Source: Deltaproteobacteria bacterium CG11_big_fil_rev_8_21_14_0_20_49_13 (GTDB lineage Bacteria; UBA10199; GCA-002796325; 1-14-0-20-49-13). From it: DNA of 40,229 nucleotides. Both the position numbers and the translations under genes were made by a program. The stretch is taken from contig PCWZ01000086.1 of the NCBI GenBank assembly GCA_002796305.1, forward strand, positions 1 to 40,229. Direction: 5' to 3'. Under the pieces are notes generated by a model. That model ran no database searches and was not told where the DNA came from. It worked only from the letters and a program-made list of their open reading frames with translations. Below, piece by piece: positions 9,967-28,050 of the stretch (positions are counted from its first letter, which is position 1; each line of letters begins with the position of its first letter).

Positions 9967-11505
9967 ATGGCCTTTAGAATTTTAAAAATATCCTTATTTT
10001 CCGCTTTGTTGGTGGTTCTTTTGCCGCTTGCTTCTTCGGCGGCAAAAGAAGATGCCGCAGCCCCTTCTCCATCGCAAAATACCATTCATCAAACGCCGGC
10101 TACAGAGGTCTCTCAAGAGACAGCCTACGACGGTGATTCGCTGGGTGACGAATTTGATTATGATGGAGATGAACAAAGCCCGTTCTTAAAAGGTATCTTG
10201 GCCGAACCGGCGACCCTGATGGAGACGGCCCCGTTAAAGCTTACCCTTGAAGACTGTTTGAGGATCTCGCTGGAACACAACGCCAAATTGCAGGCGACAG
10301 GTTACGGTATTGATGCCGCAAAGGCGCAGTTAATGGAGGCGTCAGCTATCGGATGGCCCATACTCAACTTTGAATATCGCACGGCGCCCGTTCCGCAAAA
10401 CGCGCAGAGAGCCGTCGAAAGCTTCTTCTCAGGCGAATGGTCATGGTGGAATAGGGTGAAATTTGACATGGGCATTCCCATTTACTCTTTCGGCAAACTT
10501 TCTCTTGCGGAAGAGATGGCCAGGAGCGGGATCCAGGCCGCGCAGACATATGCCTTTCAAGAGAAGAACTCGCTTGTTTCAAAGGTCAGGCAACTCTATT
10601 ATGGTATCCTTCTTGCGGAAGAGGTGGGAAGGCTCCTTTCCGAAGCGCACAAACGTCTCAGCGATGAAATAGCAAAGCGCGAGAACAAGGACGAAGAGAG
10701 CGAAGAGGTAAGCTCGCCGATGGATAGCCTTAAAATGAAGGTCTTCCTCTACGACCTTGAAAGGCGCCTTGCCGATGCGAGACAGAAGGAAACTTTGGCC
10801 CTAGAAGGACTGCGGGTCCAGATGGGGCTTGCTTCGGGAACGGTCTTTACCGTATTCTCAAATAAGTTAAGACCCGTCGAAGCGAACCTTAAATCGTTTG
10901 CCGACTATGTTACAGTTGCTATGGCCAACAGGCCGGATGTTAAGTTGCTCAAAGCGGGGCTCGATGTAAAAAGGAACCAGTATCTTTTGGAGAAGAAGAA
11001 ATGGTTCCCGGACCTTGGCGTCGGTGCATTCTTCGAACTGGGACGTACCGTGGGCCCCATGTATAATGTCACGACAAAGGACGATTTTGACGATCCATTT
11101 AGCTTCACACGCGCCGGTTTTGGCGTTCAACTTTCAAGTAAGTGGGATTTTCACGGGAATGTGGCAAGGATAAGCAAGGCAAAGAGCGAGTATTATAAAC
11201 TTAACCTTGAACAGATGATAGCAAAAGAGGGGATCAAGCTTGACGTCAGGGACGCATTTTTGAGGGCAAAGACCTCAATGGGTAACTTGAAAGCGGCGAG
11301 GGACGCGGAAAAGGCGGCAAGGCAACTACTCTTTCTGTCGCAAAGCAACTACGATATAGGGGTTGGAGAACAAAAGGATATAGTGGATGCGCTCCAGCTT
11401 GTCCTGATGACGCGCGGCAGGTATTTTGAAGCGGTCTTCGATTATAACGCCGCGCTGGCTCAGCTGGACGAGAAGATGGGATTGCTTCCGGAGGTGGCGA
11501 AATGA
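9967..11505 (+). CDS. TolC-family outer-membrane channel protein
   Basis: Outer-membrane efflux channel subunit of 512 residues. A Sec signal peptide (about 1-25, ending SSAAK) is followed by an acidic linker to about residue 90. Two outer-membrane-efflux repeats then follow, each starting with the alpha-barrel pattern LTLEDCLRISLEHNAKLQATG / LEKKKWFPDLGVGAFFELG, with long amphipathic helices between beta strands. TolC-type trimers form the exit duct for efflux or type I secretion. No inner-membrane pump or adaptor is adjacent. Instead the stop codon overlaps the start of the MlaC-like gene (ATGA), so the two are translationally coupled and may act together in envelope lipid transport. No clear ribosome site is visible before the ATG at 9967. 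Confidence 0.85.
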   Translation: MAFRILKISLFSALLVVLLPLASSAAKEDAAAPSPSQNTIHQTPATEVSQETAYDGDSLGDEFDYDGDEQSPFLKGILAEPATLMETAPLKLTLEDCLRISLEHNAKLQATGYGIDAAKAQLMEASAIGWPILNFEYRTAPVPQNAQRAVESFFSGEWSWWNRVKFDMGIPIYSFGKLSLAEEMARSGIQAAQTYAFQEKNSLVSKVRQLYYGILLAEEVGRLLSEAHKRLSDEIAKRENKDEESEEVSSPMDSLKMKVFLYDLERRLADARQKETLALEGLRVQMGLASGTVFTVFSNKLRPVEANLKSFADYVTVAMANRPDVKLLKAGLDVKRNQYLLEKKKWFPDLGVGAFFELGRTVGPMYNVTTKDDFDDPFSFTRAGFGVQLSSKWDFHGNVARISKAKSEYYKLNLEQMIAKEGIKLDVRDAFLRAKTSMGNLKAARDAEKAARQLLFLSQSNYDIGVGEQKDIVDALQLVLMTRGRYFEAVFDYNAALAQLDEKMGLLPEVAK

Positions 11506-12263
11506 AGAGACGAGACACAAAGCGTGAGGCAAGAAGCCCATCGACAAAGCTCGGAGCAGGCAAGGAGCAAGAAGCAAGAAGGTTTTATCATGTTTCCTGC
11601 TTCCTGCATCTTGCATCGCCTTTTATCGTGCTTCTTGCCTCTTGCCTCTTGCCTCTTGTTTCTTCTTCTGTCATGGCGGCAAAGGCTTCGGTTGGAACAC
11701 CAACCCGGGCTATTCAGGACCTTGATGATAAGCTTGACGACTATAAGACAGGCGCTCTTCCCCCCGCCGATGAGGAGTTCAACAGGAGCCTTAAAAAGGA
11801 GATCCTGCACGGAACCTTTAATATTCGGGAACTTTCAAGGCTTGCCCTTGGTAAACACTGGACCCCGCTCACAGAGAAAGAGCGCAACGATTTTGTCCAA
11901 CTAATGACCGACCTTCTTGAGAACAGGGCTATACTTTCAAAGGAACAGGGAAAGAAGAAGGCAAAGAGTCAGAACGTCTATACTGTATCATACAGGGGAG
12001 ACAAGCTCCTTAACCCCGAAAAGACCAGAGCCCTGACAAGGACCTCTGTCTTTGTCAAGTCCGAGGATATCAGGGTGAGCATCGACTATAAGCTGAAAAA
12101 AGAGGCCGACGAATGGAAGATATTCGACGTCATTCTGGACGGTGCCAGCCTTCTTGATAACTATAAATATCAGTTCGACTCCATCATTAAAAAGGGTGGA
12201 TTTCAGGACCTTGTCGGCAGGATGCAGAGAAAGCTCACATCGATCAGGAACGAGAAGAAATAA
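11502..12263 (+). CDS. MlaC/Ttg2D-family periplasmic phospholipid-binding protein
   Basis: Periplasmic lipid carrier of 253 residues; the family shuttles phospholipids between membranes with an MCE-domain ABC importer. The MlaC fold runs from about residue 65 to the end, with FNIRELSRLALGKHW and TEKERNDFVQLMTDLLENRA as the recognisable block, then the beta-sheet section (YTVSYRGDKLL...) and EWKIFDVILDGASLLDNYK. Its start overlaps the tolC-like stop. The N-terminus is odd: about 60 residues before the fold, with a basic lead and a Cys-rich hydrophobic core (SCFLHLASPFIVLLASCLLP). This is encoded by 7-bp tandem repeats (11560-11661), so the signal peptide appears to have been rebuilt or extended by repeat DNA. 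No mlaA, B, D, E or F is within the window. Confidence 0.8.
   Translation: MKRRDTKREARSPSTKLGAGKEQEARRFYHVSCFLHLASPFIVLLASCLLPLVSSSVMAAKASVGTPTRAIQDLDDKLDDYKTGALPPADEEFNRSLKKEILHGTFNIRELSRLALGKHWTPLTEKERNDFVQLMTDLLENRAILSKEQGKKKAKSQNVYTVSYRGDKLLNPEKTRALTRTSVFVKSEDIRVSIDYKLKKEADEWKIFDVILDGASLLDNYKYQFDSIIKKGGFQDLVGRMQRKLTSIRNEKK
11560..11661 (+). repeat. inverted pair of heptamer arrays inside the mlaC-like signal sequence
   Basis: The 5' array is gcaagga-gcaagaa-gcaagaa (11560-11581). The centre has ttcctgc twice, then atcttgc and atcgcct (11594-11621). The 3' array is cttgcct three times plus cttgttt (11634-11661). The arms 11560-11581 and 11631-11652 are reverse complements at 19 of 22 positions and can form a stem with a 49-base loop. 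All of it is coding. Confidence 0.8.
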
Positions 12264-24118: not shown

Positions 24119-24140
24119 GATTACCCCTTTTTACCCCTAC

Positions 24141-24172
24141 ACACTTACGCACTTAGATACTTACGTACTTAC
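24141..24172. repeat. octamer array in the divergent spacer
   Basis: Four consecutive 8-bp units, acacttac, gcacttag, atacttac and gtacttac (consensus RYACTTAC), lie 23 bp upstream of the 1044-aa gene's start. They fall in the likely promoter or 5'-leader area of that gene. Confidence 0.7.
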
Positions 24173-24184
24173 GCACCGCAGTTC

Positions 24185-24383
24185 TTATCGGCAGATCTCC
24201 AAAAAGGTTGCTAAGTTTTTACATATTCGTTTTTCGTGCGGATTCAATGCGCAGTGCGTTGGCGGAACGCGTATTGATATTGGACCGATCCCTCGACAAG
24301 CTCGGGAAAAGGGCGCCTAAACTCGGAGCCCTCGCTAAGGCGCCCTAAAAAAGTACGCAACTTATTCGCCGTTCTGCCGATAA
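24185..24383. repeat. MITE-like element with terminal inverted repeats
   Basis: The ~200-bp stretch is bounded by perfect 11-bp inverted repeats, TTATCGGCAGA (24185-24195) and TCTGCCGATAA (24373-24383). The similarity continues imperfectly inward for about 25 more bases (AAAAAGGTTGC against AATAAGTTGC, then T-runs). Inside are a strong AGGGCGCCT/AGGCGCCCT hairpin near 24310-24345 and the palindrome-like TCCCTCGACAAGCTCGGGA near 24290. It has no coding capacity. It fills most of the spacer between the two divergent large genes and would carry or separate their promoters. Confidence 0.6.
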
Positions 24384-24393
24384 ATGACTAGTT

Positions 24394-27300
24394 ATGAGAA
24401 TAGTGTCAAAATCACGGATCATCGCTTATTTTTTACTGTTTACTGTTTACTGTTCACTGGTAACGGGGCTTTTCTCTGCCTGTGCGGGACCCGATTACAT
24501 GCCCCAATATTTTCCGGCAAGCGACAGCAAGGAGGGGATGACCGTACAGGAAGAAGGGCCAAGCGAGAACGTGGCGACCGGAAGCTGTACGGTCAAATTC
24601 ACAGCGCACCTTTGCGTATCCATATACGGCGAGTTTGTTAAGGTGGGGGTGGACGGTGAAGAGCCCCTCTGTGCCGATATCGACCCGATCCCTTTAGAGA
24701 TAATGGGGGGTACGAATATAGTAGTTCGCGGAAATACGTTTCCAGATGTTCCGTTTGAAGGGCACGGTCTGCCGGCCCCAATCACCCTTAACGGAAAGGG
24801 TAATACTGACGGTGTTAATAATGTAGGAAATGGGAGCATTGACGAATCAGGCAACATAGAGATCGAAGGCTATTCGTTCTTTATAAACGCCCTTGGAATG
24901 GTAGGTGAAGTTCCGGACCTTGCGTTTACGACCGGTTCTACCGAGGATCTCGAAGGCTTGGGCGTAATAGAAGGTTCGCCTCTGACGGATGACGGCAAAT
25001 TAACGCTCGTCATCGGCACAAAGATAGGTCATCTATTTCCCGCGGCGGACGAAAAACTTTACGGCGCATCTTTGAGCGCCATATTTGAAGGGGAGGTCAG
25101 CCCTTCTCTCTCTCAGTGTAAGGGCGGTGATTCAAAGCCTCAGTCAACCTTTGTTACCAAGATTGTCCTAGATGATACCGGACATCAGACAGAGGCGATG
25201 CTTCCGGGTCTTAACAGTATGGAGATCGGAAAGGCCTATATTTCACAGGGTTCGCAGGATATCGGCCCCGATTTCGAGTCTTCTGCAAAATTCAGGATAG
25301 TGAACGCCACAGCCAAGCCTATTTCGATCGATATACCGCAGATACAAGGTCCTTTCATGTTCGAGGCGCTTCAGGGAGCTTCTTTAAAGCAGGAGCTTCC
25401 GTCAAAGAGACCATTGATACTGAAAGTGACCTTTCACCCCGAAAAAAATAATGTAGAAGGTCCCGGCGAGATCTCACGGATGCTGATGCTGGGGCCCGAT
25501 GTTTATCAGCTGGTCGGCGAGGCGATGAGCCCTTCCGGAAAGATGCTGATGGATGTGGAGGACGCGGACGGCAGATTCCAGCAGGCGTCCGATACTCTCA
25601 AACTGGGTGAGGTTGCGATATCCACGACGGGAAGACGCGAATTCTTCAGTTGCAGGATCATTAAATGTGATGGGGCCGAAAAACTTTCGCAGTGTATTCC
25701 TTGCGTAGATGTCCTTCTCAATATCTGCCAGCTCCTTTCCGTGGACAAGAACGGAGCTCCGATCGGCACCGTCGACCCGTCATGTGATCCTGTAGGGAAC
25801 GCCAAGGACCTCTTTTCGATCGGGCTTGGCGGTCAAGGAGGCGTTACTCCCTCAAAAAGAACGATAGAGATAAAGAACGAGGGCGTTAAGCCGCTTACTA
25901 TATCCGCCGTTGATATCGAAGAGCTCCCCGGTTCCAAGTCGGTGGAACAGTTCCAAGCCGTTGCGAACACTGCGCTCCCTGTGACGCTTAAGCCCTACAA
26001 TATTTCAAAGGAGACCTTTAGGGTCACCGCCGTTTATGAGCCGAGCGATCTCATTGGTTTTGACGGGAGCGAGGCGGTCGTTGGTCGTCCGGCTAAAGAC
26101 AGGGCCATGCTGAGGGTATCATCCGAGGGAACGAACAGAACAGTCGAACTTTTAGGAATGACCTCCGTAAAAGAGGTCCCTTCGCTTCATGTGTATTTCA
26201 AGAGCGCTACCGGCACCAAGGAACAGACCGACGGCAGCGAGTTCGCGTTCAGAGGTCTGACAACGGAGACAAACGATCTTGCGGCCCCCGTCTTTATAAA
26301 ACTTTCGGACTCTGCGGTTAAATCCGTAAGGGTCACCAAGATATCGCTCGATGCCGGCTCTGCATTTGAATGGCTCGATACAAAGGACAAAATAGACGCA
26401 AAGCCGGAAAACGTAAGATGTACGACGCCCATTTTTGACGCCGGCGGCGGAGTTTCGGGCAGGATAACAGATCTCAAACCTGTAGGTCTGCTTCCCAACG
26501 GGTTTGATGTTAAGCCGGGCGCTTATACCGCAGACTCGATGCCTCTTTTTGGTTGCGTTAATTTTCATGCCGGTATGGAGAAGAAAAAACAGTATAAGGG
26601 CGGACTTACCATTCAGACAGTAGAATTAGAAAGTTCAGGCCAGCCGGTCCGCAATCCCGACGGCTCGTTGAAGCAGACAATGTTCAATATAGGCCTTCTG
26701 GCTGTCATCAATCCCATAAAGGGCAAGCTTATCTTCCGCTTGACGCAGACGATGGCGGGCATAATGAATCCGCAGTTCCCGGGCGTTTCGGCCGCATCTT
26801 CAAAAGAAGAGATGGATGTCCAGATCGCCGACGGTCTTGCAGAGGAGTCGGACAAGTTCGTCATGCCTGGCGCGATCGTTCTCGATCCGTTCGATGAAGA
26901 GACGATAAAAGACGAAAAGGGCAATGTCGTCACAACTCCGGGGGACGGTATCACGATGGTCTATCGCAAGATCGATACCCATCCGGTGAAAAATGTTTAC
27001 GATGACCCTTTGTTGCCGGTTTATACCAGCCTGGTATACGATGGAGAAGCGCCCGAAGGTAACAAAGGCGTTTTCTTTGATTATCCTAACGTTCCCGAGA
27101 CGCTCAAGAATCCCGGACTTAGGATCTATACGGCATCGCTTTCATATCCGGGTCCGCTGGCAACGCCGGACGAGCGCGCTGAAAACATCTCTCTCTGCCA
27201 GCAAGTTGATCCGTGCGGCGAGGAGGAACAGAAACTTTACGGCAAAGGACCGACCGATAAGACCAAGCGCGGCGTTTGCTCATTTTTCTACTGTTCTGCG

Positions 27301-28050
27301 GGCGGCTGGGACAAAAGCCCTTCGATGCACCTCTCCGAGGAGTTTGAAGGCGGCGAACGAAAGGATATGTGCAAGACGGTAGGCGAGCCTCAAAAGCTGT
27401 CCGATATCCCGGGATATTATCAGCTAAATGGACGGATTGATATTACGAACGTTGGTTTCAGACTCTGGGGCCCCACATATTTTAATAATCCCGCCGGCCC
27501 ATTAGGTCCCGTTCCTCCGATGGATGCCATATTCAACCTCTCATTTACGACCGGAGTTTTATTGCCGGGCGGCGAGCACGATCTGATACCTGACAAGAGG
27601 GTCAATATCGCAAAACAGGAATATAAGATAAATCTTACCGATACTACATTGGAGACCCCGCGGCTTTGCGATACGTCCGTTAAGAACAGGCCGATAAGGG
27701 GCGAGGTCTACAGCTCGTGGAAATATCTGGCGCCGCTTTTGGTAAAAGATGAAGAGGGTGCGATGCCGGCAGGATGCCCGGAACCCGGAAATAATTTCAC
27801 CGGCGGTTCCGCGTTCCTTAGGGGAAGGCCTCTTGATCAGGAGACCGGATCTATAACTTTGGTTGCCACGGCAAAGTTCGCCTCCGACAACAATCTAACG
27901 TTCGCTTTCAAGGACGTAATGTTCTTCGTGGTCCTTAACGGATGGATGTGCGACCCCGAAGGCTCCGAAGATAACTTCGAGGGAGTGCGTTGCTATGACA
28001 ACGTTCAGAACTCAAGGGATGCGAACAATACCATCAGCATGATGGAATGA
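24394..28050 (+). CDS. large lipoprotein with ASH/choice-of-anchor-like domains (1218 aa)
   Basis: Exported protein of 1218 residues. The signal peptide (RIIAYFLLFTVYCSLVTGLFSAC) ends in a lipobox-like LFSAC at Cys30, with Phe at -3, so processing by either signal peptidase is possible. Its hydrophobic core is encoded by a heptamer array (24432-24466). Two Ig-like segments resemble ASH/SPD-2/hydin 'choice-of-anchor D' domains: about residues 288-379 (AKFRIVNATAKPISI...LILKVTFHPE...YQLVGEA) and about 474-590 (RTIEIKNEGVKPLTI...VTAVYEPSD...VELLGMT). The rest is beta-rich with scattered Cys pairs and no membrane helices. Such proteins are usually surface or periplasmic scaffolds. Function unknown. 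The next gene begins four bases after its stop, so the two are coupled. Confidence 0.8.
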   Translation: MRIVSKSRIIAYFLLFTVYCSLVTGLFSACAGPDYMPQYFPASDSKEGMTVQEEGPSENVATGSCTVKFTAHLCVSIYGEFVKVGVDGEEPLCADIDPIPLEIMGGTNIVVRGNTFPDVPFEGHGLPAPITLNGKGNTDGVNNVGNGSIDESGNIEIEGYSFFINALGMVGEVPDLAFTTGSTEDLEGLGVIEGSPLTDDGKLTLVIGTKIGHLFPAADEKLYGASLSAIFEGEVSPSLSQCKGGDSKPQSTFVTKIVLDDTGHQTEAMLPGLNSMEIGKAYISQGSQDIGPDFESSAKFRIVNATAKPISIDIPQIQGPFMFEALQGASLKQELPSKRPLILKVTFHPEKNNVEGPGEISRMLMLGPDVYQLVGEAMSPSGKMLMDVEDADGRFQQASDTLKLGEVAISTTGRREFFSCRIIKCDGAEKLSQCIPCVDVLLNICQLLSVDKNGAPIGTVDPSCDPVGNAKDLFSIGLGGQGGVTPSKRTIEIKNEGVKPLTISAVDIEELPGSKSVEQFQAVANTALPVTLKPYNISKETFRVTAVYEPSDLIGFDGSEAVVGRPAKDRAMLRVSSEGTNRTVELLGMTSVKEVPSLHVYFKSATGTKEQTDGSEFAFRGLTTETNDLAAPVFIKLSDSAVKSVRVTKISLDAGSAFEWLDTKDKIDAKPENVRCTTPIFDAGGGVSGRITDLKPVGLLPNGFDVKPGAYTADSMPLFGCVNFHAGMEKKKQYKGGLTIQTVELESSGQPVRNPDGSLKQTMFNIGLLAVINPIKGKLIFRLTQTMAGIMNPQFPGVSAASSKEEMDVQIADGLAEESDKFVMPGAIVLDPFDEETIKDEKGNVVTTPGDGITMVYRKIDTHPVKNVYDDPLLPVYTSLVYDGEAPEGNKGVFFDYPNVPETLKNPGLRIYTASLSYPGPLATPDERAENISLCQQVDPCGEEEQKLYGKGPTDKTKRGVCSFFYCSAGGWDKSPSMHLSEEFEGGERKDMCKTVGEPQKLSDIPGYYQLNGRIDITNVGFRLWGPTYFNNPAGPLGPVPPMDAIFNLSFTTGVLLPGGEHDLIPDKRVNIAKQEYKINLTDTTLETPRLCDTSVKNRPIRGEVYSSWKYLAPLLVKDEEGAMPAGCPEPGNNFTGGSAFLRGRPLDQETGSITLVATAKFASDNNLTFAFKDVMFFVVLNGWMCDPEGSEDNFEGVRCYDNVQNSRDANNTISMME
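24432..24466 (+). repeat. heptamer array encoding the lipoprotein signal core
   Basis: tttactg is repeated three times (24432-24452), then ttcactg and gtaacgg. Less regular heptamers extend upstream. The array encodes FTVYCSLVTG of the signal peptide. Confidence 0.85.

Follow-up and report, generated by a model that had tools for sequence, protein, structure and literature searches.

Two exported proteins with repeat-derived signal peptides

The window, by which we mean the whole analysed stretch of 40,229 nucleotides, holds two genes for exported proteins in which tandem 7-bp units encode part of the predicted signal peptide (SP). The features concerned are as follows.

24394..28050, + strand: predicted lipoprotein of 1218 aa without a Pfam family, from the ATG at 24394 to the stop at 28050
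24394..24480, + strand: predicted lipoprotein SP, MRIVSKSRIIAYFLLFTVYCSLVTGLFSA, followed by Cys30 (codon 24481-24483)
24432..24466, + strand: heptamer array encoding the h-region ..LFTVYCSLVTG, made of TTTACTG x3 (24432-24438, 24439-24445, 24446-24452), TTCACTG (24453-24459) and GTAACGG (24460-24466)
24357..24383, + strand: promoter-like GCAACTT...TGCCGATAA just upstream of the lipoprotein ATG, putatively of sigma-28 type
11502..12263, + strand: MlaC gene with a heptamer-derived N-terminus
11560..11581, + strand: inverted purine-rich partner array (GCAAGAA) in the MlaC n-region, pairing with 11626-11667
11588..11667, + strand: two pyrimidine-rich heptamer arrays (11588-11617 and 11626-11667) forming the MlaC SP h-region

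The 1218-aa product begins MRIVSKSRIIAYFLLFTVYCSLVTGLFSAC, with the repeat as the core of its SP, which confirms an initial annotation that had assigned this hydrophobic core to heptamers. Only three of the units are perfect copies of TTTACTG, the preceding CTTATTT (bases 24425-24431) is a degenerate unit at most, and TRF returned a period of 7 with 4 copies at 95%. The array translation, ...FLLFTVYCSLVTG, lies upstream of the lipobox FSA↓C, and the N-terminus has the features of an SPase II lipoprotein SP, namely K/R in the n-region, an h-region, a lipobox and a Cys conserved in orthologues; we presume that this predicted SP is functional. The AGPDYMPQYFP that follows the Cys is conserved in relatives, with orthologues retaining both the Cys and the next motif (CAGPDYMPQYFP, CAGPDYTP, CAGEDYHPVYFP). 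Because this post-Cys sequence is conserved and no in-frame ATG, GTG or TTG occurs between the array and Cys30, the array truly lies inside the SP; a start further downstream, which would leave the array intergenic, was ruled out since the conserved lipobox Cys has to be preceded by an SP. The lipoprotein is present in 19 of 60 sampled relatives, and a scan of genome contigs for it yielded one orthologue only.

The same annotation had pointed to another exported protein in the window with a repeat-derived SP core, and MlaC, which is probably the protein that was meant, has exactly such a core.

Other short repeats and motifs were seen around these genes. The element GCAACNTTTT..TGCCGATAA stands upstream of both divergent genes, at 24357-24383 (+) for the lipoprotein and at 24185-24211 (-) for its 1044-aa neighbour; it is similar in orthologues of several families and resembles a sigma-28 promoter, whose position would make the lipoprotein mRNA nearly leaderless. 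A REP-like word (CTCGACAAGCTCGGG / ATCGACAAAGCTCGGA) occurs at 24287-24320 upstream of the lipoprotein gene and at 11541-11556 inside the MlaC n-region, and a period-8 array (TACGCACT) occupies 24138-24176 between the divergent genes.

Period-7 arrays across the genome

The genome to which the window belongs (G000) is a MAG of 1.96 Mb in 92 contigs, and our sample of it comprised the window plus 40 stretches (662,893 bp, 34% of this one MAG). Scoring arrays by self-match at a fixed lag, with a threshold of at least 17 of 21 matches, revealed 62 lag-7 arrays in the 663 kb. The counts at lags 4-6 and 8-13 were 0-11, which excludes chance at the genome level; lag 14, being 2x7, gave 20. By a longest-ORF criterion 44 of the 62 arrays are genic, and the intergenic DNA (12%) is still over-represented. 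Genic arrays were found in frame in many housekeeping genes (ValS, MtaB, RarA, HemN, PrmC, CarB, RlmN, IspF, MurF, MurG, ThiC, PyrK, MiaB, PheT, CysS, a PcrA-type helicase, FolC and HemC) as well as in the essential-type TolB and BamD.

These in-frame arrays bear on the proposal, also made in the initial annotation, that the lipoprotein array is a frameshift-prone switch, in which gain or loss of heptamer units would turn a surface lipoprotein on and off. A switch of this kind could physically operate: 7 is not divisible by 3, a single unit gained or lost brings a stop at aa 20 or 84, changes of one or two units in either direction would end the protein after 20-84 aa, and phase variation through repeat number has been discussed for other bacteria (PMC4692102, PMC4679880). 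We nevertheless regard it as very unlikely, as the units are imperfect with only three perfect copies, the genic arrays examined are in frame in the assembly, the array carriers are not specifically surface antigens, and switching would be expected to be lethal in ValS, CysS, PheT, MurG, MurF, TolB and BamD.

A TACGAGA array recurs at matching N-terminal positions in two similar [2Fe-2S] subunit genes (L061:7543-7574 and 11018-11049), and this shared array may be older than the duplication of the two genes or may have been carried along in it.

Enrichment of arrays in signal peptides

SPs were called by a crude home-made rule, generous in that it covers 35% of genes and 2.3% of coding bases, on genes from a home-made caller with predicted start codons. 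Under this rule 9 of the 44 genic arrays overlapped an SP where 0.77 were expected, a count reached in none of 2000 random in-gene placements and conservative because the rule misses MlaC. Genic arrays also clustered at gene starts, with 15 beginning within the initial 130 nt, where 5.7 were expected, against 5 in the last 130 nt. These counts bear out the suggestion of the initial annotation that arrays are enriched genome-wide at the starts of exported-protein genes, and the genome does not display the contrary pattern, tested here, of arrays lacking enrichment and otherwise lying in intergenic DNA.

A whole-genome search for one family, using three and a half units of the pattern TGCNTYN, returned 35 matches (~31 distinct arrays), while the reversed-pattern control returned 0. 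Among 29 of these arrays examined, 3 were intergenic and 26 genic, with 12 of the 26 lying in SPs as judged by eye, although this pattern was picked after SP cases had been seen, so that the unbiased test is the lag-7 sample only. SP carriers in this family include a TonB receptor, DctP, TolB (TolB_N), DUF3047, MlaC and a BamD-like YfiO, along with a Peripla_BP_6 lipoprotein, a DsbA-like lipoprotein, TPR proteins and lipoproteins, and one unknown. Taking census and sample together, at least 16 genes of the genome have heptamer-built SP segments.

Sorting of arrays by strand

Whichever of the three frames is used, a heptamer array encodes one and the same cyclic heptapeptide, because 7 = 1 mod 3, and thus only the strand matters. 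TTTACTG yields the hydrophobic FTVYCLL on one strand and a stop on the reverse, and TGCTTCC yields the hydrophobic LLPASCF on one and KQEAGSR on the reverse; that pyrimidine-rich arrays read as hydrophobic, as first supposed, holds in every frame for the main SP families. SP location followed this sense: among genic TGCNTYN arrays, 12 of 17 in the hydrophobic sense lay in SPs against 0 of 9 in the hydrophilic sense (Fisher P = 0.0007, SPs judged by eye), and distinct arrays of an unrelated heptamer, GTCCNTN, pointed in the same direction in other genomes (2/4 against 0/13). The sorting is not absolute, with 5 of the 17 hydrophobic-sense arrays lying outside SPs and some SP arrays being non-hydrophobic, such as LITDNRSPFTS in the c-region at L062.

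Arrays might instead be nucleic-acid elements, that is hairpin regulatory or protein-binding repeats, whose occurrence in SPs is either fortuitous or helps to control the mRNA close to the start codon. An inverted partner array lies within 120 bp of 14 of the 62 arrays in G000 and of 11 of 22 in another genome of the class (G019), against 0 in controls, the fold of the MlaC inverted pair is more stable than that of shuffles (z = -2.4), and the over-representation of arrays in intergenic DNA is likewise in keeping with such a role. However, a search for an inverted partner of the lipoprotein array found none, its fold is ordinary relative to shuffles (z = -0.13), and a nucleic-acid role alone does not predict sorting by encoded hydrophobicity, all of which make this account unlikely.

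Comparison with relatives

The GTCCNTN heptamer is abundant in three relatives (198 matches in G019, 178 in G024 and 161 in G029) and absent from most of the 46 class members. Matches number 198 in G019 and 0 in its congener G007, a contrast within one genus that implies that an invasion by heptamers can reach the whole genome and be of recent date. No genome outside the class was added when the TGCNTYN search was extended to the phylum, and no congener of G000 was present among the genomes searched.

In G019, GTCC heptamers, which are unrelated to TTTACTG, make up the SP core of the orthologue of the 1218-aa lipoprotein (MHKFLKKVLGPWSIVLGLFLSAC), and its divergent neighbour there has a 46-aa SP, also with a GTCC-heptamer core, whereas both counterparts in G007 are ordinary (MKNASKFIFLLPLTIFIGC for the lipoprotein and a 19-aa SP for the neighbour). 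TolB repeats this recurrence with unrelated heptamers, as its SP is built from TGC heptamers in G000 and from GTCC heptamers in G029 and is ordinary in the other relatives compared. Further GTCCNTN SP arrays occur in L248 and L255, and the SPs of lipoprotein, TolB and MlaC orthologues in array-poor relatives are without arrays. Because G007, which lacks GTCCNTN, keeps ordinary SPs and TolB is ordinary in other relatives, we conclude that the arrays invaded existing SPs. The initial proposal that arrays create or replace SPs is therefore supported for replacement or extension and not for creation, since the carriers that could be checked either come from families of exported proteins or have orthologues whose SPs are ordinary.

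Other kinds of insert were observed at these genes in relatives. In L012 (G014) the SP n-region of the lipoprotein orthologue holds an insert of another, palindromic kind (GGTGAAAAAGTGG...CCACTTTTTCACC), and in L007 (G024; ORF from 5306) a repeat that encodes VIPAKAGIQ, together with an inverted copy, lies in the SP region of the divergent neighbour.

Another reading is that arrays, especially purine-then-pyrimidine inverted pairs, act as combined n-region and h-region cassettes that create SPs on proteins without one. The arrangement itself recurs, with a purine arm as charged n-region and a pyrimidine arm as h-region in MlaC, the L043 cytochrome, L155, the L029 TonB receptor, and L066 and L070 of G019, and a cassette would combine these two properties because complementary strands encode opposite hydropathy. 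As an origin of new SPs we give it hardly any credence, replacement or extension being what is seen instead. The broader idea that inverted heptamer pairs are mobile, self-contained SP cassettes, repeatedly rebuilding and sometimes newly conferring export signals across the class, is a speculative one that we consider doubtful.

A proposed explanation

We think it likely that heptamer arrays spread promiscuously, that selection sorts them by strand, and that SP cores are the main tolerant home of the hydrophobic strand. Several families of 7-bp tandem arrays would have invaded the genome, partly as inverted pairs, both between genes and in frame within them, moving or expanding perhaps by insertion or slippage. 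SPs tolerate sequence change, and because an h-region needs hydrophobicity but no particular sequence, it would be the main coding site able to accept hydrophobic-strand arrays. Purifying selection would then do the sorting, leaving hydrophobic-strand copies mainly where only hydrophobicity counts, while hydrophilic strands would persist as gene-body insertions and in termini and n-regions. The lipoprotein array would be one such event, in which the core of a pre-existing SP was taken over.

Read in this way, promiscuous spread followed by strand sorting amounts to a natural experiment on SP tolerance that can be counted across a genome, and to a clean example of how loosely SPs are constrained, and it suggests that repeats survive particularly often in SP cores. 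It also cautions annotators to expect repeat DNA at the gene starts and in the SPs of such genomes.

Relation to known repeat systems

Heptameric short tandem repeats (STRR, TAACTGA, GGGAATC) are described, in the accessible parts of the reports, from cyanobacteria and Xanthomonas (PMC4692102) and from Beggiatoaceae (PMC4679880), the latter with a few ORF cases, mostly at protein ends. Our arrays resemble these in being tandem 7-bp units with many copies per genome and a patchy distribution among clades, and they are dispersed and multi-copy by the same standard (62 in 663 kb; 35 matches of one family). They differ in location, as STRR-type heptamers are mainly intergenic, a usual though not strictly defining trait, whereas 44 of the 62 arrays here are genic; neither SP concentration nor strand sorting was found in the accessible parts of those descriptions. 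From what is accessible of the Geobacter metallireducens report, that genome has heptanucleotide elements of four or five tandem heptamers within and between genes that were proposed to be regulatory (PMC2700814), but their sequences differ from ours and no SP link is described there.

In the open-access literature searched, we found no direct link between heptamers and SPs, no SP concentration of repeats with strand sorting, and no case of natural repeats repeatedly taking over SPs with a built-in strand-orientation control. The single precedent located there for a small repeat as part of an SP is a Yersinia MITE that partly forms the SP of YPO1552 (PMC2229807), and Rickettsia palindromic elements and other bacterial MITEs are likewise known to insert in frame in conserved genes (PMC2229807). 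MITE-type elements are mostly 100-200 bp with terminal inverted repeats, whereas those described here are simple 7-bp arrays of several families, of which 14 of 62, the lipoprotein array not among them, have inverted partner arrays.
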